From assembly GCA_019115485.1 (NCBI GenBank), contig DXDM01000059.1, positions 62,001 through 126,000 of the forward strand: a stretch of DNA of 64,000 bases, read 5' to 3'. Under the pieces are notes generated by a model. The model did no database searches. It worked only from the letters and a program-made list of their open reading frames with translations, and was not told where the DNA came from. A program made the translations under genes and the position numbers. The stretch comes from Candidatus Barnesiella excrementavium. GTDB taxonomy: Bacteria; Bacteroidota; Bacteroidia; Bacteroidales; Barnesiellaceae. Shown here piece after piece: positions 6,639 through 46,681 of the stretch. Numbering within the stretch: position 1 is the first letter of the stretch; each line of letters opens with the position of its first letter.

Positions 6639-6756
6639 GTATATAAACCGAACCGATTCCTCCCGGCTGTGAAAAGTCGTGGAGCGATGCGATTGTGCCG
6701 CCTGCGAGAAGAGTCGGCACGGTCGGAATATATTTTCTCACATTAAATATATACCT

Positions 6757-14304: not shown

Positions 14305-17300
14305 ATGAAAAAGTGGTTATGTGTGCTCGTCATTCTAACGGGAGGATTATGGACGAGCGTTAGTGCACAGAATTCGTCACGAGTGCTTTTAGAAGAGACA
14401 CACCAAGTAAAGAATGATCCGGAGCTTGTTCGGCAGTTTATGGAGAAATCGAAGAATTTTCAGCAGCGGACTACCTCTTCCGGGAATGAGTTTCAGCAAG
14501 TTCGTTCTTGGGTGCGCAAGAAAAATTTTATTGCAGCCGCTCCTTCGCTTTCCAACCTGAAATTGAACGGTGCGGTGGTGTACGATGAGAACAGAGATGT
14601 CAATACCTTTGGCATCTACTCTTTTTCGGCTCAGGCTCCCGTCATTCGCAAGGAGGTGACGCTTATTCCCCGGCTTTCGGCTGGTGGTGGAGCTATTTAC
14701 TCCGACGGGAAACTGTATGTGTATGATTACTCTGTCGATTATGGATTCGTGTCGTCGAGCAGTTATACCGTATACGATGCGGCTACGGGGGAGGAACTTA
14801 CCTCTAAGAGCATGGGGCATGACCTGGGACCGGTCTATCGCAATGCGGCGGTCAGTTGTGCCAAGGATCCGGTCTCGGGAACGGTCTATTGTTGTTCCTA
14901 CGGGTATAACGACCAGACCAGAGAGTTGTGTTACGTACTCTCTACCTGGAACCTCGAAGGTATGGCCAAAGATAGTATCGCCCTGTTGTCCAAGCCCATG
15001 CAGGTGATGGCTTGTGCCTCCGACGGGAAACTGTATGGCATTTCGGCCAGCACCGCGACCGAAGGGAACAACGGTGGCGTTTTGTACGAGATAGATAAAA
15101 CCACAGGGGCGCTGCGCGAAATAGGGGATACCCAGGTATCGCCCAAGTATACCCAGTCGGCCGTAATCAATCCGGCCGACGATACGTTCTATTGGTTTGC
15201 CAACGAAGAAGACGAGGCAGCCAATCTGTATACGGTCGATTTGGCTACCGGAACTGCTACGTTGATTGGGGCGTTGCCCTATGGCGATCAAGTTGTGGGA
15301 GCCTATATTCCCGACCCCGAGGCTGCCGATGGGGCTCCATCGAGGGCCGAAAATCTGTCGGCCACGTTTGAGCATGGAGCGTTGTCGGGTACGGTTTCGT
15401 TTGATATACCGGGCGAGACTTACAGTGGAGCTCCGCTGACGGGCGAAATTTCCTATAAGATTTCGGGAAATGGCAGCGTATTGGCCACCGGGGAGGCCGC
15501 GGCCGGCACAAAAGTAGATTGCCCGGTTACGGTCCCGGCTTCGGCATTGTATAAGTTGGAGGTGGTTCTGACCAACTCGGTCGGAGACAGTCCGGTGAGT
15601 GATTTGACCCTCTACATCGGGAAAGACGCTCCCTTGGCTGTCAATAACCTCACTGTTGTTCGAACCGGTGACGTGAATACGGTTTCCTGGAATACCCCTG
15701 CCGGCACCAAGAACGGCGGCTACATGGACAAGGCCGACTTGCGTTACAAGATTGTGCGCATGCCCGATAATGTTCAGGTGGCCGAGAGCCATGCCGATAC
15801 GGTATTCTCCGAGACCTTCACGACCGAGGAGCTGGCCCTCTATTCTTATGTGGTAACTCCCTATAACGACGGTATCGAAGGTGAATCGGCTACCTCCAAC
15901 TCGGTGAGTGTAGGCGATGCGCTGACACCGCCGTATGAGCAGGACTTTACCGATAAGAATGCGTTGGGACTGTTTACGGTAGTCGACGTCAATGGTGACG
16001 GTAAGACATGGAGTTATTCCAGCGGTACGGTCCGGTATTCCTGTCACATGAAAAATCAGGCCGATGACTGGCTGATTACGCCTCCGTTGAAATTGCAGCA
16101 GGGATATGAGTATGAATTTTCATTCGATACCTATGTGTTGAGTTCCCGCTCCGAAGAGAAGATGGAGGTAAAGATGGGAACGGCCGCAACGGTCGAGGCC
16201 ATGAATACGGTGGTGATGGAGGAACGCACCTATACCAACACGCGCACATCGCCCAAGACCGAGACTTTCTCGATCAAGCCCGAGGCCGACGGAGTGTATT
16301 ATATAGGTTTCCATGCGGTAAGCGATGCCAATAAGGGAAATCTTACACTCGATAATATTCGTTTGGGAGCACCTGTGTCGGCCAATGCCCCGGGTGCGGT
16401 CGAGAATCTGGCTCTCACGCCGGGAGCTCAGGGAGCCCTGTCGGTAACAATCGAGTTCACGGCACCGACCCGGAATCTGGAAGGGGGCGAACTGACCGAG
16501 TTGACTGCTATCGATGTGAGCCGGGGAGAGACCCTGGTCAAGACCTTTGAGAATCCCGAGATGGGAGCCACCCTGCAACTGGTCGACAACGATGCCGTCG
16601 AGGGTGAGAATGTCTATCAAGTCGTGGCCCGCAATTCGTTTGGTGAGGGCGAAGCCCTGCTCGACACGGTGTGGGTCGGCATCGACGAGCCGCTGGCTCC
16701 GCAGTCGGTGACCTTCGTTGACAACGGCGACGGTACGGGTTTGCTCTCTTGGAGCGAAGTATCCGAGACGGGTAAGAATGGCGGATATGTAAATCCTCGG
16801 GAGGTCGTTTATACCCTCTATGATGCCGACCGGAAAGTCGTGGCCGAAGGGGTAGAGGGTCTTCAATACGAACTCAATGACTTGAACAACGAGATGCCTC
16901 AGGTACTGACCTATTTCTCGGTAGTTGCTCAAAACGGGAAGGGCGTTTCGGAGGCTACGCAATCCAATTCGCGTCTGGTAGGTCCCTCATATCCGTTGCC
17001 CTACACCGAGTCGTTTGCCGGTGCCGAGGTTACTCATGGCCCCTGGACTACCGAGTTGTTGTCGGGGAAGAGCTACGATTCGGGTTGGGATCCCCGTCCC
17101 GATCAATCGCAGGACAACGACGGGGGAAGTGCCGATTTCCAAGCCTATGCCGTAGGAGCCTCGACCCGTATTTACAGTCCGAAAATCGATATCTCCACGG
17201 TCGATAATCCTCGACTCAATGCCTGGATTTTGATGCCTACGGGTGGCGTGCGGGTTCGCTTCCAGGTTTCGGTCGATTATGCCGATTGGACCGATGTGGA

Positions 17301-18852
17301 GATTATTGAAACGGCCGACGAATGGACCCGAATCAATGTAGACCTTGTTCCGTATAAATCGAAGAATCTGCGACTGGCTTTGGTCGGGGAGTGTGTCGAA
17401 GATTTCAATTTCGCTTATGTCGATAATATTGAAATTTGCAACTATCTGACCGATAATCTTCAAGCTGTTGCCATTACCGGCCCGGCGAAAGTCGATTTTA
17501 AGAAAGAGGCTCAATATGTGGTTACCGTGTTGAACGAAGGTGTGAACGAAGCCTCCCGCTTTACGGTCGATTTGGTCGATAGTGAGGAGAATGTATTGGC
17601 CTCGAAGTCGGTAGAATCGCTGGCTTCGCAGGGTACCGTGAATGTGGAAATTCCGTATACGCCCTCCATCGAGATGGCCGGTACCGACCTGGTTGTGTAT
17701 GGAGTGGTCAAGTATGACCTCGACCAGAATCTCGACGATAACCGCACGGCCACGGCGGTGACAACCCGGGTAAACGGTTCGTCCTACCCCGTCGCTACCG
17801 GCTTGACGGGACGTCGTGAAGGATCGGTTGTTAGACTTTCCTGGACAGTACCCTCGCTCGATCAACCGGTGGCCGAGACCGTGACCGATGGTTTTGAAGA
17901 TTACGATTCCTTTACGGTCAATGGATTCGGCGCCTGGACCGTGGCCGATGTTGACGGAGGCAATACCTATGTGTTTGGCGAGTCGCAGGCATGGCCCAAT
18001 GCGGGAGCTCCGCAGGCATTCATGATTTTCGATGTGACGGCCGAGCCGATTGCCGGGCTGGGTGTAGACGAGCGCTTTATGATGGACGCAACCCATGGTT
18101 CCAAACTGGCCGTATGCTGGTCGTCCGATCCCGCGACTACACAACTCGGGCACAACGACGACTGGCTTATCTCGCCTCGTCTGGCTGACGAAGGACAGAC
18201 TCTCTCGTTCCAGACAAAGGCTTATGATGCCCAGTATGTAGAAAGCATGGAGGTCTACTATTCAACTACGGGTAATGCGGTTGAGGACTTTACAAACAAT
18301 CTGGATAAGGTCGCTTCGGTTCCGGCCGACGAGTGGACGACCTATACCTATGAATTGCCTGCCGAAGCAACCTATTTTGCCATACGTTGTGTTTCGGAGA
18401 ATGCCTTCCTGTTGGGTATCGACAATGTGACCTACAAGCCGCAACCTGTTCTTCCCGAAGGACTGACCGTCGAGAGCTACAACGTGTATCGCAACGGCGA
18501 GTTGCTGGGGAATACCGCTTCGACCGAGTATAGCGATGAGACGCCGGGCGATGAGGACAATGTATATGCCGTGTCGGTTGTCTATAATTTGGGCGAGTCG
18601 ATTTTGTCGGCACCCTGTACGGTAGGGACCTCGGGCATGGAGTCGAACCTGTTGCAGGGCTGCAAGGTATATGTCGAAAACGGAGCTGTCGTGATTTGTG
18701 GCGCTGCCGGTAATCGGGCTTCTATCTCCGATTTGTCGGGAGTAGTACTGTACAACAACGAGATTTGTTCCGATGTGACGACTGTTCCTTTGAACCGGGG
18801 TATATATATTGTTCGTCTTTTGAACAAGAGTATAAAGGTGATTGTCGATTGA
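14305..18852 (+). CDS. Giant secreted protein with beta-propeller-like, Fn3 and choice-of-anchor J domains and a T9SS-like tail
   Basis: The 1515-residue protein has a Sec signal (residues 1-22, ending SVSAQ). Residues about 90-345 look like a beta-propeller (repeated aromatic strands, DGKLYV and DGKLYGI). Then come several fibronectin-III-like modules, each about 90 residues, and three choice-of-anchor J/cleaved-adhesin-like modules, recognisable by PPYEQDFTD, LPYTESFAG and DGFEDYDSF starts and DDWLI(T/S)P motifs. The last 75 residues resemble a type IX secretion sorting domain: KVYVENGAVVICG, ISDLSGVVLYN and LNRGIYIVRLLNKSIKVIVD. It is predicted to be exported to the cell surface, perhaps as an adhesin. 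It stands alone between two terminators. Its ligand is unknown. Confidence 0.8.
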   Translation: MKKWLCVLVILTGGLWTSVSAQNSSRVLLEETHQVKNDPELVRQFMEKSKNFQQRTTSSGNEFQQVRSWVRKKNFIAAAPSLSNLKLNGAVVYDENRDVNTFGIYSFSAQAPVIRKEVTLIPRLSAGGGAIYSDGKLYVYDYSVDYGFVSSSSYTVYDAATGEELTSKSMGHDLGPVYRNAAVSCAKDPVSGTVYCCSYGYNDQTRELCYVLSTWNLEGMAKDSIALLSKPMQVMACASDGKLYGISASTATEGNNGGVLYEIDKTTGALREIGDTQVSPKYTQSAVINPADDTFYWFANEEDEAANLYTVDLATGTATLIGALPYGDQVVGAYIPDPEAADGAPSRAENLSATFEHGALSGTVSFDIPGETYSGAPLTGEISYKISGNGSVLATGEAAAGTKVDCPVTVPASALYKLEVVLTNSVGDSPVSDLTLYIGKDAPLAVNNLTVVRTGDVNTVSWNTPAGTKNGGYMDKADLRYKIVRMPDNVQVAESHADTVFSETFTTEELALYSYVVTPYNDGIEGESATSNSVSVGDALTPPYEQDFTDKNALGLFTVVDVNGDGKTWSYSSGTVRYSCHMKNQADDWLITPPLKLQQGYEYEFSFDTYVLSSRSEEKMEVKMGTAATVEAMNTVVMEERTYTNTRTSPKTETFSIKPEADGVYYIGFHAVSDANKGNLTLDNIRLGAPVSANAPGAVENLALTPGAQGALSVTIEFTAPTRNLEGGELTELTAIDVSRGETLVKTFENPEMGATLQLVDNDAVEGENVYQVVARNSFGEGEALLDTVWVGIDEPLAPQSVTFVDNGDGTGLLSWSEVSETGKNGGYVNPREVVYTLYDADRKVVAEGVEGLQYELNDLNNEMPQVLTYFSVVAQNGKGVSEATQSNSRLVGPSYPLPYTESFAGAEVTHGPWTTELLSGKSYDSGWDPRPDQSQDNDGGSADFQAYAVGASTRIYSPKIDISTVDNPRLNAWILMPTGGVRVRFQVSVDYADWTDVEIIETADEWTRINVDLVPYKSKNLRLALVGECVEDFNFAYVDNIEICNYLTDNLQAVAITGPAKVDFKKEAQYVVTVLNEGVNEASRFTVDLVDSEENVLASKSVESLASQGTVNVEIPYTPSIEMAGTDLVVYGVVKYDLDQNLDDNRTATAVTTRVNGSSYPVATGLTGRREGSVVRLSWTVPSLDQPVAETVTDGFEDYDSFTVNGFGAWTVADVDGGNTYVFGESQAWPNAGAPQAFMIFDVTAEPIAGLGVDERFMMDATHGSKLAVCWSSDPATTQLGHNDDWLISPRLADEGQTLSFQTKAYDAQYVESMEVYYSTTGNAVEDFTNNLDKVASVPADEWTTYTYELPAEATYFAIRCVSENAFLLGIDNVTYKPQPVLPEGLTVESYNVYRNGELLGNTASTEYSDETPGDEDNVYAVSVVYNLGESILSAPCTVGTSGMESNLLQGCKVYVENGAVVICGAAGNRASISDLSGVVLYNNEICSDVTTVPLNRGIYIVRLLNKSIKVIVD

Positions 18853-18965: not shown

Positions 18966-19001
18966 CTGTTGCTGTCATTTAATCTGTTACTGTTATTTAA
19001 A
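18966..19001 (+). repeat. 18-bp direct repeat upstream of the TonB/phosphatase promoter
   Basis: Two adjacent 18-base copies (18966-18983 and 18984-19001) agree at 15 of 18 positions. Each is made of two CTGTTR-like hexamers followed by TTTAAW. CTGTCAT and CTGTTAC within them resemble single Pho-box half-sites of enterobacteria. They lie just upstream of the site at 19006-19027 and could extend it. Confidence 0.6.
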
Positions 19002-19005
19002 ATGC

Positions 19006-19041
19006 TTGTAACAAGAATGTTATAGAGTCCCGATACCTTTG
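19006..19041 (+). promoter_or_regulatory. Pho-box-like direct repeat and promoter of the TonB/phosphatase operon
   Basis: Two 11-base units start with TTGTAACA (19006-19016) and ATGTTATA (19017-19027); six bases later comes a perfect -7 box TACCTTTG (19034-19041). No TTTG -33 box is present at the normal distance; the repeat covers that region, as expected for an activator-dependent promoter. The same units, at the same distance from the -7 box, precede the phosphate transporter gene (41298-41263, minus). Confidence 0.65.
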
Positions 19042-19070: not shown

Positions 19071-21884
19071 ATGAAAAAAACATTACTGCTTATTTTCATT
19101 TTAAGCCAGATGGTTGCCGCGCAGGCAGCCGGATTGATTTCGGGAACAGTGAAAGAGGGGACCGAACAACACACGCTGCCGGGTGCCGTGTTGCGGCTGG
19201 ACAAGTTTAACCGCTATACGGTCTCGGACAAGAACGGTTATTTCGAGTTTTTGAATGTGCCCGACGGGGACTATCGGGTCGAGGTTACCTACTTGGGATA
19301 CGTGACAGCCTATCAAGATGTGACCGTCAACGAGGGGGCCAACTCGGTCATGAACTTTCTTCTGCAAGAGGACTCCAAGGTGCTTAACGAGGTGGTGGTC
19401 ATGGGCGACCAGGCCCGTGGTCAGGCCCGGGCATTCAACCAGCAGAAGACCAATCGTAATGTGACCAATGTGATTTCGGCCGACCAGGTGGGGCGTTTTC
19501 CCGACTCCAACATCGGCGACGCTTTGAAACGGGTTCCTGGTATCACCATGCAGAACGACCAGGGCGAGGCGCGCAACATCATTGTGCGGGGCTTGGCCTC
19601 GGAGTTGAACTCGGTGACCTTGAACGGCAACCGCATTCCCTCGGCCGAGGGCGATAACCGCAAGGTGCAGATGGACCTGATTCCCTCCGACATGATTCAG
19701 ACCATACGGGTGAACAAGACCTTGACTCCCGATATGGACGGCGACGCCATAGGCGGTTCGGTCGACCTGGTGACGCGTGCCGCATCGGGCGGGCAGCGCA
19801 TCTCGCTCACGGCGTTGGGCGGGTTCAACCCCATACGCAACGGTGCCACGGGTTCGGGGTCGTTTGTCTACTCCAACCGTTTCGCCGGCGACCGGGTGGG
19901 GGTCGTGCTCAGTGCTTCGTACATGAACAAGACCTACGGCTCGGACAACATCGAGGGGGTATGGGGCAAAGACGATGCCGACAACATCTTCCTCGAAGAG
20001 ATGGATATTCGCAAATACGACGTGCAGCGTATCCGTCGCAGCATATCGCTCAATACCGACTGGAAAATCGATGCCAACAATACGATTGCGGCCGACCTGA
20101 TGTACAACTGGCGTGACGACCGGGAGAACCGCTTCCGCACTCAGTTCAAGGATGTCGAGCCGGTTTACGACGAAACGACCGGAGCGATTGCCGGGTATAC
20201 GGGTACCATATCACGTGAGACCAAGGGGGGTATAGACAACTGCCGCAACAAGAACGCCCGCCTCGAAGACCAGCGGGTGCAGTCCTATGCCCTCACGGGT
20301 ACGCACCTGCTGTCGCCCAAGTTCGACCTGGACTGGAATCTCAGCTATGCCAAGGCACAGGAAGATCGTCCTCACGAACGTTATATCGAGTATGTGCAGG
20401 AAGGGGTTTCGATGACCCAGGACCTCACCGACCCGCGCAAGCCTTTCATCTCGGCACCGGGGCAGAGCGAGAGCGCTTTCCTCTTCGACAAGCTCACCGA
20501 GCAGCACGACTATACCGACGAGGACGAGTATTCGGCCAAAATCAATGCTCGGGTACCGCTCTCGGCCATCGCTTCGCAGAAGGGGCGTCTGCACTTCGGG
20601 TTGAAGGCCCGCATCAAGAGCAAGGAGCGCAACAACAATTTCTATGAATATACTCCCGTCGACGAGCTGCCCTCGCTGGCCGAGATGGACAAGGCTACTT
20701 ACACCCAACCGCTCACTCAGGGTGACCGCTATATACCGGGTTCGTTCGTGTCGAAACAGTGGCTGGGCAGTGCCGACCTCGACAACCCGGCACTCTTTGA
20801 GAAAGAGGCCGACCCTTCGGAATATCTGGTCAACAATTACAAAGCCAAGGAGCAGATTTATGCCGGTTACCTGCGTTGGGACCAGGATATTACCCCCGAC
20901 CTCACCTTTATCGTGGGTGCCCGTATCGAACACACCCGGGTCGACTACGAGGGTAACTATGTACTCGACGAGGATTATGACAATGCCGACCTGCGCCAGG
21001 TCAAGAACAGCTATACCAATGTATTGCCCAATGTGACTATTTGCTACACTCCGTTGAAAAATATGGTGCTCAGAGGGGTATTCTCGACGGCGCTGGCCCG
21101 TCCCAATTACTACGCGTTGATTCCTTTTGCCGATGTGAAATCGGAGGACCGCGAAATCTCGGCCGGAAATTCCGATTTGAAAGCTACCTACTCCTACAAT
21201 GCCGACCTCATTGGCGAATATTACTTCCAGTCGGTGGGTATCGTTTCGGCTGGGCTTTTCTACAAGAATCTCGACAACTTCATCTATAACTACCTCGATG
21301 CCAACTATACGACCGACAAGTTTGCCGCCGATTTCCCCGGCTTGCCCAATCCCATTCCCGCCGGTGAGCAGTGGCAGTTCCTGCGTCCGCTGAATGGCGA
21401 CAAGGTGCATCTGTTCGGGGTCGAGCTCGCCTTCCAGCGCAAACTCGATTTCCTGCCCACGAGTTTTCTGCGCAATTTCAGCGTGATGCTCAACTATACC
21501 TACACCCACTCGATTACCCAGGGTATCTACAACGAGGACGGCGAGGAGCGCACCGATGTCAGCTTCCCCGGCACCGCCCCGCACATGTTCAACGCCTCGC
21601 TGGCTTGGGAGAACAATCGTTTCTCGGCACGTGTTTCTTTAAACTACACGGGTGGATATCTCGACGAGGTGGCCAGTGATGCTTTTGAAGATCGTTATTA
21701 CGACGGCCAGCTCTTCCTCGACGCCAACGCCTCGTACCGCATCGTCGACGGGTTGCGCATCTTTGCCGAGGCCAACAACCTCACCAACCAGCCGCTGCGC
21801 TACTATCAGGGTTCCAAGCAGTACATGGCGCAGCTCGAATATTACAAGTCGACCTTCGACTTGGGTATCAAATGGGAGTTCTAA
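19071..21884 (+). CDS. TonB-dependent outer-membrane receptor
   Basis: The 937-residue protein has a signal peptide (1-20), a carboxypeptidase-regulatory-like beta-sandwich domain (about 22-105), a plug domain (about 110-235, with the QVGRFPDSNIGDALKRVPGI region) and a 22-strand barrel ending in the aromatic DLGIKWEF. TonB-dependent receptors import ligands too large or too rare for porins using energy from the inner membrane. The operon partner is a phosphatase-like lipoprotein 36 bases downstream and the promoter has a Pho-box-like repeat, so a phosphorylated organic compound is the likely ligand; this is inference. There is no SusD-like gene nearby, unlike glycan systems. Confidence 0.92.
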   Translation: MKKTLLLIFILSQMVAAQAAGLISGTVKEGTEQHTLPGAVLRLDKFNRYTVSDKNGYFEFLNVPDGDYRVEVTYLGYVTAYQDVTVNEGANSVMNFLLQEDSKVLNEVVVMGDQARGQARAFNQQKTNRNVTNVISADQVGRFPDSNIGDALKRVPGITMQNDQGEARNIIVRGLASELNSVTLNGNRIPSAEGDNRKVQMDLIPSDMIQTIRVNKTLTPDMDGDAIGGSVDLVTRAASGGQRISLTALGGFNPIRNGATGSGSFVYSNRFAGDRVGVVLSASYMNKTYGSDNIEGVWGKDDADNIFLEEMDIRKYDVQRIRRSISLNTDWKIDANNTIAADLMYNWRDDRENRFRTQFKDVEPVYDETTGAIAGYTGTISRETKGGIDNCRNKNARLEDQRVQSYALTGTHLLSPKFDLDWNLSYAKAQEDRPHERYIEYVQEGVSMTQDLTDPRKPFISAPGQSESAFLFDKLTEQHDYTDEDEYSAKINARVPLSAIASQKGRLHFGLKARIKSKERNNNFYEYTPVDELPSLAEMDKATYTQPLTQGDRYIPGSFVSKQWLGSADLDNPALFEKEADPSEYLVNNYKAKEQIYAGYLRWDQDITPDLTFIVGARIEHTRVDYEGNYVLDEDYDNADLRQVKNSYTNVLPNVTICYTPLKNMVLRGVFSTALARPNYYALIPFADVKSEDREISAGNSDLKATYSYNADLIGEYYFQSVGIVSAGLFYKNLDNFIYNYLDANYTTDKFAADFPGLPNPIPAGEQWQFLRPLNGDKVHLFGVELAFQRKLDFLPTSFLRNFSVMLNYTYTHSITQGIYNEDGEERTDVSFPGTAPHMFNASLAWENNRFSARVSLNYTGGYLDEVASDAFEDRYYDGQLFLDANASYRIVDGLRIFAEANNLTNQPLRYYQGSKQYMAQLEYYKSTFDLGIKWEF

Positions 21885-21920: not shown

Positions 21921-22910
21921 ATGAAAAAATCCGTTAGATTCTTTTTGAAAAATATCCGCTTCTTTTCGGCCTTGCTGCTGGTAGGGATTATCTTGTGCGG
22001 TTGGTCGTGCCGCCAGACCAACGACTCGCAAAACCGTACCCTCCCCGAGTCGATCGACGACAACTTCAACTTTATCGTAGTCAACGACATGGGCCGGAAT
22101 GGTTATTACGACCAGAAGCCCATTGCCGAGCAGATGGGCGAAACGGCCGGAGAAATCGGTATCGAGTTTGTGGCCGCCGCTGGCGACATACACCACTTCG
22201 AGGGGGTAGCCAGTGTGAACGACCCGTTGTGGAATACCAACTACGAGTATATCTATTCGCACCCCGAACTGATGCTCGACTGGTATCCCGTGCTGGGTAA
22301 CCACGAGTACCGGGGCAATACCCAGGCCGTGCTCGACTATTCGGGCGTGAGCCGTCGCTGGTGCATGCCCGCCCGGTATTACGACAAGAGCTTCGAGGTG
22401 GGCGACAGCTCGTCGCTCAAAGTCGTGTTCATCGACACGGCTCCGCTTATCGACAAGTACCACAAGGAGTCCGAAGAGTCGTATCGCGATGTGGCCGCAC
22501 AGGATATGGAGGCCCAGTTGCATTGGATCGACTCGGTGTTGAATGCCTCGCACGAGACCTGGAAAATCGTGATAGGCCATCACCCCGTCTATGCCCAGAC
22601 TCCCAAAGATGAAATCGAACGCGAGAACTTGCAGCAACGGCTCGATCCGCTGTTGCGGAAATATGGTGTTGATATGTACATAGCCGGTCACATTCACAAC
22701 TTCCAGCACATCAGGGTACCGGGAAGCGATGTTGACTACGTGGTCAACTCGTCGGCCTCGTTGAGCCGTAAGGTCAGCGAAATCGAGGGGACGCAGTATT
22801 GCAGTCCCGAGCCGGGATTTTCGGTGGTATCGGTATCCGACAAGGATTTGAATCTTTATATGCTCGATAAGACCGGTCACGTGCTTCATACTGTCACGCG
22901 CACCAGATAA
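21921..22910 (+). CDS. Metallophosphoesterase lipoprotein resembling tartrate-resistant acid phosphatase
   Basis: The 329-residue protein has a lipoprotein signal with GWSC at Cys30. The metallophosphoesterase motifs appear in order: VVNDMGRNG, AAGDIHHFEGV, LGNHEYRGN, VIGHHPVYA and AGHIHNFQHI. The overall spacing, and stretches such as WYPVLGNHEYRGN and SRRWCMPARYY, match tartrate-resistant acid phosphatase (type 5). In that enzyme the second motif is GDNFY, whose Tyr binds iron; here it is GDIHH, so the tyrosine is replaced by His and the protein is not expected to be purple. It probably releases phosphate from compounds handled by the TonB receptor encoded just upstream. Confidence 0.9.
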   Translation: MKKSVRFFLKNIRFFSALLLVGIILCGWSCRQTNDSQNRTLPESIDDNFNFIVVNDMGRNGYYDQKPIAEQMGETAGEIGIEFVAAAGDIHHFEGVASVNDPLWNTNYEYIYSHPELMLDWYPVLGNHEYRGNTQAVLDYSGVSRRWCMPARYYDKSFEVGDSSSLKVVFIDTAPLIDKYHKESEESYRDVAAQDMEAQLHWIDSVLNASHETWKIVIGHHPVYAQTPKDEIERENLQQRLDPLLRKYGVDMYIAGHIHNFQHIRVPGSDVDYVVNSSASLSRKVSEIEGTQYCSPEPGFSVVSVSDKDLNLYMLDKTGHVLHTVTRTR

Positions 22911-38985: not shown

Positions 38986-41232
38986 TTATTGATTCTCTTC
39001 CTGGAATTTTTGATTCATCTTCAAGAGGTTGATGGAGTAGGCCACCACATTCTGCGACTCTTGAATGACGGTGAGGTAGACGATTCCTACCTTGATGTAG
39101 GACATCTGTTCCCGCATTTGGCGAATCTCTTCCCGTTTGAGCACACCCAGTTGGTTGATGAGTATGTTACCCTTGTTGTAGAGGGCGGCCACTCCTTTGT
39201 CGTTCTCTTCGACAGCCTGTTTGCACTGTTCCAGGAAGTGGACGATATCCTGGGCAATGGTGCCGAAGCTCTCTTTCTGAGCTTGACCCAGCGGGTTGAA
39301 GTTGTTGTCGGTATGTTCGAGACACGGTTCGCAGGCCCGTTTGATGGCGTGAATGATGTCGTAGGAGAAGTCGTTGCCCTGGAAGTAGTAGAGACCCTTT
39401 TCCAGACCCACCTGGTCGTTCAGGTGCGATACCCCTATGGTGCCCAGTCGTTTCACCTGTTTGAAATAGCGGCGTTCGGTTTCGATGTCGCCCATCGCCT
39501 TGCGCAGGGTGCGGTAGCTCTCGTGGAGGAATCCCGAGGTTACCCGCTCGTAGAGGTCGGCGCTCCAAGCCAGCACCTTGGTAAACTCTTCGCGGCTGAA
39601 TTGGCGCAACAGCACGAGAGCGTTTTCCTGGTCCTTGTTGGCCACCAGTTGTTGAGCCAGTGAGCTCTTTTTCTCTTTTTTCAGTTTCTTGTTATAGCTG
39701 ATTTGGCTGTGGATAAGCATGTAGGCAGCCAGTATGCTCAGCAGAATGATGGCAATGGTACCGCCGAAGTAGACAATCATCGTGACGATGAAGCAGATGA
39801 GGAAGGCAGCACCGGCCGTGATGAACCACCCGCCGATGACCGAAATGACTCCGGTGATGCGGTAGACGGCACTGTCGCGACCCCAGGCCCGGTCGGCGAG
39901 TGAACTACCCATGGCCACCATGAAGGTGACGTAGGTGGTCGAGAGAGGCAGTTTGAGCGAGGTACCCAGAGCGATGAGCAGGCTGGCCAATACCAGGTTG
40001 ACCGAGGCGCGCACCAAGTCGAAGGCAGCACCATGTTCGAGTATCACATCGTCCTTGTCGAACCGGCTGTTGAGCCAGGTGCGGGCTTTGGGCGGTATGT
40101 TGTTGATGATGAGCGACGAGGCGTTGGTGGTCATGCGCACCAGCTTGCGGGCGATAGGCGAGGTTCCGAAGTTCTCCTCACCCGTCTCCTGACGCGACAG
40201 GTCGACCGAGGTCTTGATTACGTTCTGAGCCTTTTTCGAGGTGAACAGGGCAATCACCATGATGATGCCCGACCCGATGAGGAAGACCGACGGTGTCCGG
40301 GCCGATTCGAGCAGCGAGGTGGTGAGGAACTGGTCGGGGGCCAATCCGTTGGCATTGGCCGTATAGTCGGTGTAGGCCGAGAAGCCGGCCAAAGGTACAC
40401 CGATGAAGTTCACCAGGTCGTTACCGGCAAAGGCCAGGGCCAGTGCGAAGGTACCCAGCAGCACCACCACTTTCAGCACATTCACGCGGCACCACATCAG
40501 AATCTGCATCAATAGCGTGGTTACCACGAAACAGCAGCCCATGAGCAATTGTGTATTCTCGTGAATCCAGGCCCGGGCTTCGGGAGTCATCATGGTCGAT
40601 CCTTTCAGGCCGTTGATGAGGATAAAGTAGATGATGGTGGTAGCAGCGAAACCGCCGAACAAGGCTCCGAAATATTTCAGCTGTTTGCGATAGTTGAATT
40701 TGAAAATGAGTCGGGCGATATACTGTACGACTACGCCGAAGAAGAAGGCGATGGCTACCGACACGAAGATGGCGATAATCACCTGCAACGCCTTGTCGGT
40801 GTTGATGAGGTCGCCCATCTGCAAGGCTCCGTTGCTGTTGATGGTCTTGACGATGGCCAGGGCGAAGGTACCGCCCAGCAACTCGAATACCATCGACACC
40901 GTGGTCGAGGTGGGAAGTCCCATCGTGTTGAAGACGTCGAGCAGGACCACATCGGTGAGCATCACCGCCAGCATAATGCACATGATTTCATTCAGGTAGA
41001 AGAACTGGGGCTGGTATATACCGTGCCGCGCAATATCCATCATGCCGTTCGACATGGAGGCCCCTACAAAAATACCTATTGCCGCGATGGCCATGATTAC
41101 TTTGAAGGAGGCTGCTTTGGCACCGATAGCCGAGTTGAGGAAATTGACGGCATCGTTGCTTACTCCCACCGACAGGTCAAAGACGGCAATGAGGAAAATA
41201 AAGATAACGATAATCAGATAGAATGTTTCCAT
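38986..41232 (-). CDS. PiT-family inorganic phosphate transporter with PhoU-like C-terminal domain
   Basis: The 748-residue transporter has the two inverted PiT motifs, VGVSNDAVNFLNSAIGAK (about residues 22-39) and FAGNDLVNFIGVPLAG (about 265-280), within some ten to twelve transmembrane spans. Residues after about 535 form a soluble helical domain (SREEFTKVLAWSADLYERV, YRTLRKAMGDIETERRYFKQ) that resembles PhoU-type regulators, which are usually separate proteins. The true start is METFYLIIV at 41232; the longer frame runs into the promoter. It imports phosphate using a cation gradient. Confidence 0.92.
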   Translation of the reverse strand: METFYLIIVIFIFLIAVFDLSVGVSNDAVNFLNSAIGAKAASFKVIMAIAAIGIFVGASMSNGMMDIARHGIYQPQFFYLNEIMCIMLAVMLTDVVLLDVFNTMGLPTSTTVSMVFELLGGTFALAIVKTINSNGALQMGDLINTDKALQVIIAIFVSVAIAFFFGVVVQYIARLIFKFNYRKQLKYFGALFGGFAATTIIYFILINGLKGSTMMTPEARAWIHENTQLLMGCCFVVTTLLMQILMWCRVNVLKVVVLLGTFALALAFAGNDLVNFIGVPLAGFSAYTDYTANANGLAPDQFLTTSLLESARTPSVFLIGSGIIMVIALFTSKKAQNVIKTSVDLSRQETGEENFGTSPIARKLVRMTTNASSLIINNIPPKARTWLNSRFDKDDVILEHGAAFDLVRASVNLVLASLLIALGTSLKLPLSTTYVTFMVAMGSSLADRAWGRDSAVYRITGVISVIGGWFITAGAAFLICFIVTMIVYFGGTIAIILLSILAAYMLIHSQISYNKKLKKEKKSSLAQQLVANKDQENALVLLRQFSREEFTKVLAWSADLYERVTSGFLHESYRTLRKAMGDIETERRYFKQVKRLGTIGVSHLNDQVGLEKGLYYFQGNDFSYDIIHAIKRACEPCLEHTDNNFNPLGQAQKESFGTIAQDIVHFLEQCKQAVEENDKGVAALYNKGNILINQLGVLKREEIRQMREQMSYIKVGIVYLTVIQESQNVVAYSINLLKMNQKFQEENQ

Positions 41233-41262: not shown

Positions 41263-41298
41263 CAAAGGAACGACTTTCATGTTACAGAATTGTTACAA
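41263..41298 (-). promoter_or_regulatory. Pho-box-like direct repeat and promoter of the phosphate transporter
   Basis: On the minus strand, TTGTAACAATT (41298-41288) is followed at once by CTGTAACATGA (41287-41277), an 11-base direct repeat, then six bases, then TTCCTTTG (41270-41263), one mismatch from the -7 consensus. Unit length and all spacings equal those at 19006-19041 ahead of the TonB/phosphatase operon. Confidence 0.7.
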
Positions 41299-44179: not shown

Positions 44180-46681
44180 ATGGATATGAAAAAATTTTTT
44201 GTACTCTTTACTTTATGCGCACTCCTTTCGACGGGGTTGTATGCCAAGACCCGTTCTTTGCAGGAGGCGCAGCAGATAGCCAACAGTTTTGTCGGCAATA
44301 CCGGGAACCTTAAAAAGGGAACGAGGGTTGCCTCACAACTGGCTTTTACCCGTGAGGGCTCGTCGCAACCGCTTTATTATGTGTTTAATAAGGGGGCTGG
44401 ATTTGTTATTGTATCGGCCGATGACCGGGCTACTGAAATTCTGGGCTACTCCGATGCCGGTTCGTTCGATGCCGACAATCTGCCCGATAATTTCCGCTAC
44501 TGGTTGGGGGTTTGTGCCGATGAGTTGGAGGCACTGGCGGCTACTCCCGAGTCGGCTACGGTTTCTCAATCGGTTGAACTCCCTGCCCGGTCTACCGGAA
44601 AAACGGTGGCTCCGCTGTTGGGCAGCATTCTGTGGGATCAGACCGACCCCTACAACTCCTTGTGCCCCAACATAGGAAATGGCGAAAGGGCTGCTGTGGG
44701 CTGTGTGGCCACGGCCATGGCTCAGATTATGGGCTACCACCAATGGCCCAAGAAAGGTATCCAGACCTTGCCGGGCTATACCACTGCCTCTCGTAGTTAT
44801 AAAATCTCGCGGATACCTCTGAGTGAGATGACCTACGATTGGAGTTTGATTACTCCTGTTTATACGAGCGAGAGTACCGAAGCCGAAAAGGCCGAGGTGG
44901 CCAAACTGATGTATCACTGCGGTGTCTCGGTAAAAATGGATTACGGACCTTCGAGCGGTGCCATATCGCTCAATGTGCCCAATGCCTTGATCAACTATTT
45001 CGGATATAATGCGAGTATGAAGGCGCTGATGCGCGACTATTACACCAAGACCGAATGGGAATCGATTATCCGCAAGGAGTTGGACGAGAGCCGTCCCGTC
45101 TACTACTACGGCTCCGGGTCGGACGGCGGACATGCCTTTGTGTGCGACGGTTACGATGCCAACGGCCTTTTCCACATCAACTGGGGGTGGAGCGGCATGT
45201 CGAACGGTTATTTTGCCCTGTCGGGATTGACTCCTTCGATACAGGGCACCGGTGGAAACAGCACGGGGTTCAACTTTGATCAAGGTGCCATTATCGGCAT
45301 ACAGCGCGAGACAACCGAGGAAGACGATGAATACCAAATCTACATTGATAAAACCTTCTCGATTTTCCAGGCTCCTTCGAATCGAAATACCCCGTTCGAT
45401 ATGCTGGTCGAGGGGTTTTGGAATATGGATTACAGAGGTTTCAATGGCAAAATAGGATCGGGCCTGTACAGCGAATCGGGCGAGTTGGTTGATACACTTG
45501 GTCTGTCTGATATTGAACTGCCGGCAGTGGCCGGGTGGGATCAGATTTATTTCCCGGCTCAGATTCCCGAGACTGTTGTCGACGGTACCTATCGCATCTA
45601 TCTGATATATCAGACCAAGGGTTCGACCGATTATCAAATCATACGTTCGAAAGTGGGTCAACCCAACTACATACAGGTGACCTTGAACGGTAGCCGCATG
45701 ACTTTCTCCAATGCAACCGGCTATGATGTCGATCTGCGATTGGACAATTTGGAGGTAGAGGGTAACCTGTACCAAAATGAAGAGGGCCGATTCAAGTACA
45801 CCGTCACCAACCAGGGAGTTGAGTATGTATCGGCTTTGATGATACGGCTGGTTTCCACGACCAGTTCCCTGGTATATCAGTGGGGAAATTATAATCCGGT
45901 AGTAATAGCTCCGGGGGAGACACAGACGTTTGAAGTGTCGGAGTCGATTACGTTGCCCGCCGGAGAATATGACCTTTATCTCTGTTACGACCCGAACAAC
46001 TCCTACGAAAATATCAGATCCGTCAATGCGATGGGCGAAAGCAAGCGGGTAACGATTCTTGCCGAACCGACTGCGGGAACACCCGACCTGCAACTGGTTT
46101 CGCCCCTTTCGTTTGCCGATAACAATCATGTGAACCGGGCCGATATGAACCTGACGGTGACCATGGTCAATCGGGGTGATTATTTCTACGATGACGTCGT
46201 GGCCTTTATCTTCCCCGAAGAGTCGGGCAGTCAGTCGGTGGCCTCTTTGGGCCTTCAGCCGATTAGTTTGGCGGCAGGAGAAGAGCGCGAGGTGAATTTC
46301 AGCGGTGCCGTCAATCTGCCCTATGGCACCTATTTCATGTCGCTCTATTATTGGAATGACAATGACTGGCAGCTGTTTGGTCCTAAGGAGAACAATAATC
46401 TTGCCTTTACTTTGACGGAATCCACTACGGCATTGGCTTCGGTCGAGGCCGACGCGCTGACGGTCTATCCCAACCCGGTACGCGACGTGCTTTATGTGCA
46501 GGCTCCCGGTGAGTTGACCGATATCAGCATCTATGACTTGTCGGGTCGTCGTCTCCTGCACCTGCAACCCGAGGTTGAGGGTGAGGTTCAACTCCCCGTG
46601 GCCGATTTGCAGTCGGGTTCCTATATGCTGGTGGTTCGCGCCGCACAAGATGTGAAGACTACACAATTTATCAAACAATAA
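44180..46681 (+). CDS. Secreted C10-family cysteine protease (SpeB/prevotellain-like) with T9SS tail
   Basis: The 833-residue prepro-protein has a signal peptide (ending about residue 22, LYAKT), a propeptide (about 25-140), and a C10 catalytic domain with Cys175 in AAVGCVATAMAQIMGYHQWP and His318 in GGHAFVCDGYDANGLFHINW. Beta-sandwich modules follow, and the last 80 residues form a canonical type IX secretion sorting domain (LTVYPNPVRDVLYV, ISIYDLSGRRLL, LQSGSYMLVV). It is predicted to be released or anchored at the surface. ATG 44186 is an equally good start. A lipoprotein gene follows after 10 bases. Confidence 0.92.
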   Translation: MDMKKFFVLFTLCALLSTGLYAKTRSLQEAQQIANSFVGNTGNLKKGTRVASQLAFTREGSSQPLYYVFNKGAGFVIVSADDRATEILGYSDAGSFDADNLPDNFRYWLGVCADELEALAATPESATVSQSVELPARSTGKTVAPLLGSILWDQTDPYNSLCPNIGNGERAAVGCVATAMAQIMGYHQWPKKGIQTLPGYTTASRSYKISRIPLSEMTYDWSLITPVYTSESTEAEKAEVAKLMYHCGVSVKMDYGPSSGAISLNVPNALINYFGYNASMKALMRDYYTKTEWESIIRKELDESRPVYYYGSGSDGGHAFVCDGYDANGLFHINWGWSGMSNGYFALSGLTPSIQGTGGNSTGFNFDQGAIIGIQRETTEEDDEYQIYIDKTFSIFQAPSNRNTPFDMLVEGFWNMDYRGFNGKIGSGLYSESGELVDTLGLSDIELPAVAGWDQIYFPAQIPETVVDGTYRIYLIYQTKGSTDYQIIRSKVGQPNYIQVTLNGSRMTFSNATGYDVDLRLDNLEVEGNLYQNEEGRFKYTVTNQGVEYVSALMIRLVSTTSSLVYQWGNYNPVVIAPGETQTFEVSESITLPAGEYDLYLCYDPNNSYENIRSVNAMGESKRVTILAEPTAGTPDLQLVSPLSFADNNHVNRADMNLTVTMVNRGDYFYDDVVAFIFPEESGSQSVASLGLQPISLAAGEEREVNFSGAVNLPYGTYFMSLYYWNDNDWQLFGPKENNNLAFTLTESTTALASVEADALTVYPNPVRDVLYVQAPGELTDISIYDLSGRRLLHLQPEVEGEVQLPVADLQSGSYMLVVRAAQDVKTTQFIKQ

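Follow-up and report, generated by a model that had tools for sequence, protein, structure and literature searches.

A putative Pho box of 11-bp direct repeats, set in phase with the -7 box, at phosphate-linked promoters of Candidatus Barnesiella excrementavium

The 64,000-nucleotide stretch of Candidatus Barnesiella excrementavium DNA analysed here (the window) carries a receptor-phosphatase operon and, on the opposite strand, a phosphate transporter gene, each preceded by a pair of direct repeats (Table 1). The operon appears to consist of two genes, in which a TonB-dependent receptor (530.4 bits against TIGR01782, cut-off 310) is followed by a purple-acid-phosphatase-like lipoprotein, and an RsmD-like methyltransferase (PF03602) comes next on the opposite strand. 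The lipoprotein is a calcineurin-fold protein that matches human purple acid phosphatase 1war (1.1e-31), and its hydrophobic N-terminus ends, as judged by eye, in a lipobox-like Cys. Directly before the operon lies a gene for a 1515-aa protein (14305-18852) with DUF6383 and a CARDB match just under cut-off. The transporter belongs to the PiT family and is 89% identical to its closest named relative, from Barnesiella sp. An22; its start is likely the ATG at 41232, since the longer open reading frame start at 41280 overlaps the promoter site. The window also encodes a C10-family peptidase with a Spi-type inhibitor prodomain and a Por secretion tail (44180-46681).

Table 1. Coordinates of the candidate promoter elements and of the genes that follow them, in window positions
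Feature	Position	Strand	Evidence or remark
Two extra in-phase 11-bp units, CTGTTACTGTT (18984-18994) and ATTTAAAATGC (18995-19005)	18984-19005	+	Register with the -7 box
Candidate Pho-box pair TTGTAACAAGA / ATGTTATAGAG before the TonB receptor operon	19006-19027	+	Matrix score 24.5, second in window
Spacer TCCCGA and -7 box TACCTTTG	19028-19041	+	Box consensus TAnnTTTG from PMC7366714
TonB-dependent receptor, 937 aa, operon gene 1	19071-21884	+	Pfam PF00593, PF07715, PF13715; TIGR01782
Purple-acid-phosphatase-like lipoprotein, 329 aa, operon gene 2	21921-22910	+	PF00149, 1.3e-15
PiT phosphate transporter, 748 aa	38986-41232	-	PF01384, 3.2e-25
Spacer AAGTCG and -7 box TTCCTTTG	41263-41276	-	Read in window
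Candidate Pho-box pair TTGTAACAATT / CTGTAACATGA before PiT	41277-41298	-	Matrix score 37.8, best in window

Pfam detects only PHO4 in the transporter, and AlphaFold2 predicts a C-terminal six-helix PhoU-like domain at residues of about 530-748. The model (58-sequence alignment; mean pLDDT 78.7, pTM 0.60) matches TmPiT (6l85, E 1.2e-8) over its first part, and its approximately 210 C-terminal residues match the PhoU structures 1sum, 3l39, 1t72 and 4q25 (E 0.006-0.2), the best of these with TM-scores by target of 0.68-0.79 and a Foldseek probability of 1.00. In a profile alignment with the PhoU of the genome, this C-terminal domain showed no sign of sequence similarity (probability 0.2), so that the case for a fusion rests on predicted structure, according to which PiT appears to be joined to a PhoU-like domain.

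Inspection of the two promoters bears out the layout put forward in an earlier, sequence-only reading of this DNA. At 19006-19041 (+) and at 41298-41263 (-), two 11-base units are followed by six bases and an eight-base -7 box with identical spacings, reading TTGTAACAAGA ATGTTATAGAG TCCCGA TACCTTTG before the receptor and TTGTAACAATT CTGTAACATGA AAGTCG TTCCTTTG before PiT. The consensus described for the Bacteroidota sigma factor, in the part of PMC7366714 consulted, combines a TAnnTTTG box with a TTTG near -33. Among four promoters the -7 box is exact in that of the receptor and one base off TAnnTTTG in those of PiT (TTCCTTTG), phoB (CAATTTTG) and phoU (TTTCTTTG). That reading had also held both sites to lack a normal TTTG -33 box, which is correct for spacers 15-24, where neither site nor any of the four promoters examined has one, and needs qualifying for PiT, which has a TTTG at spacer 25. 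The two sites were also scored with a unit matrix. It was trained on PiT promoters from elsewhere in the Bacteroidales, the two Barnesiella loci of the set being left out, and the weights of its -7 box were set by hand. Across the window the PiT site ranks first (37.8) and the receptor site second (24.5); the third row (11.5) overlaps the receptor site, and the top unrelated site scores 9.7. The maximum over 20 random Markov-1 windows was 17.3.

The receptor site had been described as a two-unit element. The pair is present as claimed, and two further in-phase units adjoin it upstream (Table 1), each weak when taken singly (CTGTTACTGTT, P 0.0125; ATTTAAAATGC, P 0.0166). Blocks of TGTT and TTAAAA, 11 and 22 bases upstream of the pair, are kept in eight orthologous promoters, and because of this conservation the receptor promoter is probably a four-unit array.

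The 2.68-Mb genome was searched with the pattern TGTNAY-N5-TGTNAY-N11-WNNTTTG, allowing at most one mismatch. Four matches were obtained, with none in reversed controls; three of the four are found before PiT, before the TonB receptor-phosphatase pair and before phoB. Because the pattern was derived from the PiT and receptor sites, only phoB is an independent find. This third match, on contig C39, stops 24 bases short of a response-regulator start codon; the promoter holds two units, and a histidine kinase gene follows the regulator. The regulator passes the NCBIfam PhoB (Bacteroides) model NF053854 (361.9 bits, cut-off 270), the kinase passes the PhoR model NF053855 (788.7 bits, cut-off 500), and the best PDB match of the regulator's DNA-binding domain is E. 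coli PhoB. The fourth match (C41:93227) was set aside as chance; it overlaps the last part of a flippase reading frame, and the matches listed for the relatives include no obvious equivalent.

Scored with the unit matrix, the sites of the genome reach 37.8 (PiT), 24.9 (phoB), 24.5 (receptor) and 19.3 (before phoU). The phoU site comprises four in-phase units, TTGTCAT, TTGTAAA, ATGTAAC and AGGAAAC, followed by six bases and TTTCTTTG, and was seen in one genome. The loci around a 612-aa PhoU-domain gene (L011, L012) gave a matrix maximum of 9.2. At one contig end (G000:C55, L014, about 6690-6740) the letters translate to TGVQTCAPSDL and GRSTRLNSSH, which we take to be typical of sequencing-adapter carry-over, and this end is probably an assembly artefact.

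Conservation was followed through nine genomes of the genus, where a similar pattern with at most one mismatch gave 36 matches versus 11 in controls. Nine of these lie at PiT, six at phoB and five at the receptor, with 16 in other places. All but two of the 20 assignments were verified by tblastn on fetched loci, and the remaining two (phoB in G002, receptor in G004) have coordinates adjoining the genes found. Matches are therefore not scattered at random with respect to phosphate genes, as three of four in the own genome and 20 of 36 across the genus stand at phosphate-linked promoters. The PiT site is present in 9/9 genomes, the phoB site likewise in 9/9 when the promoters are read directly, and the receptor site in all eight genomes with the receptor gene; G002 gave no receptor match at E 1e-100. 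The PhoB-type regulon that the sequence-only reading had proposed thus gains support from a third site before phoB-phoR and from conservation within the genus. A genome-wide matrix scan of the kind proposed along with it fared less well. A 38-column matrix (R1), built from 13 PiT sites only, ranked PiT top in each of the nine genomes and missed almost all other promoters, recovering phoB once (G007, E 0.65) and the receptor never, with 150 candidates per genome scored. Because R1 recovered almost no held-out promoters, the regulon claim rests on the patterns, the orthologous promoters and the phase. Just upstream of the PiT repeats, some 20 bases (near GAAAYAMGATAGATAYAYG) are also kept as a block in the nine promoters, and the sequence farther upstream is not.

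Period and phase were examined over the order with 80 PiT loci, of which 74 were usable after one that was too short and five without an ATG at the match start had been dropped. At least 11 of the 12 bases of TGTAAC-N5-TGTAAC are matched in 33 of the 74 promoters and at least 10 in 50, where 60 permuted units average 0.05 and 1.8, respectively. The pair occurs at period 11 in these 33 promoters and at other periods from 7 to 16 in 0 or 1. Since 24 of the upstream regions, Alistipes and Porphyromonas included, have no core of 10 or more, the feature is common and not universal. An eligible TNNNTTTG box beyond the core is found in 38 of the 50 promoters whose core has 10 or more matches; the other 12 have none under the counting rule. 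A TTTG formed inside the units shares the box phase by construction, and such cases were therefore excluded from the phase count. In 36 of the 38 eligible promoters the -7 box stands in the phase of the window sites, one of eleven, most often at a remove of four or two unit lengths from the pair, with distances from the core of 53 (27 promoters), 31 (5), 42 (2), 64 (1) and 75 (1) bases, and the two out-of-phase boxes are at 23 and 73 bases. An earlier, looser count of 37/39 had taken in one TTTG inside the core (distance 9) and was replaced by this recount; the binomial figure attached to the looser count takes no account of relatedness and should not be read as a probability. A loose order-wide pattern gave a modest excess over 149 genomes (49 matches versus 29 in the control). 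Sixteen reading frames lie downstream of its matches, and four of the ten given to Pfam carry a TonB-receptor plug or CarboxypepD_reg, a suggestive share counted without a control set. At one locus (L111, G068:C5:218917-218951) a matching site stands before a small CarboxypepD_reg protein, about 1.8 kb upstream of a same-strand pstC match.

The pstC promoters link the repeats to PhoB. PstC was over cut-off in six of ten named genomes searched, and in all five Bacteroides/Phocaeicola genomes with pstC an array precedes the gene; 75 bases, equal to six unit lengths plus the spacer, separate its core from the box, and the phase is the same. Some positions in the arrays make poor units: in the two arrays scored unit by unit, the fourth unit is at -2.5 (B. 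oleiciplenus) and -8.0 (P. massiliensis). The sixth genome, that of Segatella copri, has no array before the gene. Among 30 further pstC loci of the order, a pair of at least 11 occurs in five (opposite strand two, reversed sequence one), and most are without a clear site in the scanned stretch, for which a different operon start may be part of the reason. The supporting experiments were done in B. fragilis, a genome outside those scanned. According to the sections of PMC3547664 consulted, recombinant PhoB of this species shifts a 512-bp pstC promoter fragment and leaves a control fragment unshifted. In the phoB mutant the permease BF3715, which from its name we infer to be the PiT ortholog, falls 52.2-fold and pstC falls 428-fold, and the acid phosphatase BF4541 rises 328-fold only with PhoB present (PMC3547664). 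The array listing of the same paper gives no change above 4-fold for pstC or BF3715 in the wild type at low phosphate.

Comparison with known systems places the feature nearest to the Pho box of enterobacteria. The likeness to it suggested in the sequence-only reading holds up, in that E. coli pstS has four 11-mers, the third of them weak, then six bases and TATTTTG, and thus shares the 7-mer direct repeats, the 11-bp period and the spacing to the box. It differs in that the unit here is TTGTAACA and not the conserved CTGTCAT given for E. coli in the available part of PMC4415409, in that the box here is the TAnnTTTG of the Bacteroidota sigma factor, and in that PiT carries a site. The PhoRB system of B. 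fragilis (BF1575-BF1576) is alike in that PhoB binds the pstC promoter and that the PhoB-dependent genes include a permease and an acid phosphatase (PMC3547664, in part), and the pair found here scores above the cut-offs of NF053854 and NF053855, the models for PhoB and PhoR of Bacteroides; pst is present in B. fragilis, in contrast to the nine genomes of this genus, where PstC was not found. The main text of PMC3547664 names the Pho box once and uses no words that start with 'motif', 'consensus' or 'binding site'. Riemerella anatipestifer PhoPR is likewise a Bacteroidota two-component system that is up on phosphate starvation and autoregulated; the most conserved bases of its PhoP motif, TTTAACA, resemble the TTGTAACA unit, and the EMSA targets include one TonB receptor (PMC9603813, in part). 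Unlike here, that motif is reported as ArcA-like, and the available text of PMC9603813 states no -7 box phase. Flavobacterium johnsoniae also induces TonB receptors, lipoproteins and phosphatases on phosphate depletion (PMC8115612, in part); in contrast, that paper gives no promoter site, and words starting with 'motif' or 'promoter' are absent from its main text. Because of the pstS geometry, the TAnnTTTG box and the likeness to Riemerella TTTAACA, we file the feature as a putative Pho box in a form suited to the Bacteroidota sigma factor. No description of this Bacteroidales site was seen among the papers listed, mostly the top 8-20, in full-text searches of a literature poor in subscription papers.

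Both window sites are, with high confidence, PhoB-dependent promoters within the following proposed Pho-box scheme. Phosphorylated PhoB would bind head-to-tail, as one dimer per pair, on 11-bp direct-repeat units of consensus TTGTAACA-N3. Six bases separate the last unit from the -7 box, the TAnnTTTG element of the Bacteroidota housekeeping sigma factor. PhoB would thus stand where the -33 box is missing and, under phosphate scarcity, recruit RNA polymerase by class II activation. Its regulon in this genome would comprise PiT and phoB-phoR, with two units each, and the TonB receptor-acid phosphatase operon, with probably four, and may, on weaker evidence, extend to phoU (four).

A rival account is that the direct repeats are bound by some OmpR-family response regulator other than PhoB. 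Tandem half-sites of about 10-11 bp are the usual targets of this family, and the genome encodes three other Trans_reg_C regulators; the Riemerella PhoP motif from DAP-seq is moreover reported as highly similar to that of E. coli ArcA (PMC9603813, in part). We nevertheless regard a regulator other than PhoB as unlikely, given that the site precedes phoB, PiT and, in Bacteroides, pstC, whose B. fragilis promoter PhoB binds. The matrix gives at most 7.7 at the loci of two of the other regulators (L006, L007), and at the third (L008) its one site of 16.3 lies 3' of that regulator's DNA-binding domain. Almost no credence can be given to the notion that the repeats reflect chance, or the shared ancestry of AT-rich promoters, with no regulator involved. 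It draws on the fact that only two sites were given at the outset, that short repeats arise randomly, that close relatives inherit sequence and that a TTTG within units shares the box phase and can inflate phase counts. However, 36 of 38 boxes keep to one of eleven phases once any TTTG that lies in the core or opens a unit has been left out, pairs occur almost exclusively at period 11, permuted units fail, and the distance varies while the phase is constant, which common descent alone does not predict.

The sites might also bind PhoB and repress, since a box could obstruct RNA polymerase by covering the -33 region, and the wild-type permease of B. fragilis shows no rise above 4-fold in low phosphate (PMC3547664, array listing). 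This is very unlikely in light of the positive effect of phoB on both pstC and the permease in that species (PMC3547664, in part), and of the absence of a -33 TTTG at spacers 15-24 in all four promoters examined. The geometry, moreover, equals that of E. coli pstS, a promoter activated via its Pho box.

PhoB, PhoR and PhoU are all present in the own genome, PhoB is found in 9/9 genomes of the genus, and PhoR was seen in the five loci checked. PstC gave no match at E 0.001 in the nine genomes, and PstB none over cut-off in the own genome. The E. coli loop runs through Pst, PhoU and PhoR; unlike it, PiT with its predicted PhoU-like domain and the separate PhoU might together take over signalling to PhoR without Pst, and with both as PhoB targets a feedback loop would be closed. 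We put this forward tentatively, as a possibility on the doubtful side. Should it hold, a transporter that joins PiT to PhoU and has a Pho box to itself would be well placed to tie phosphate uptake to PhoR.

For Bacteroidales, an order prominent in the human gut, the analysis yields a concrete candidate PhoB site with its spacings resolved. It suggests that the geometry between PhoB and the core promoter at E. coli pstS is kept despite a different sigma factor and different boxes. If this is true, phosphate regulons would become predictable across Bacteroidales, and the replacement of a -33 box by an activator would become testable.
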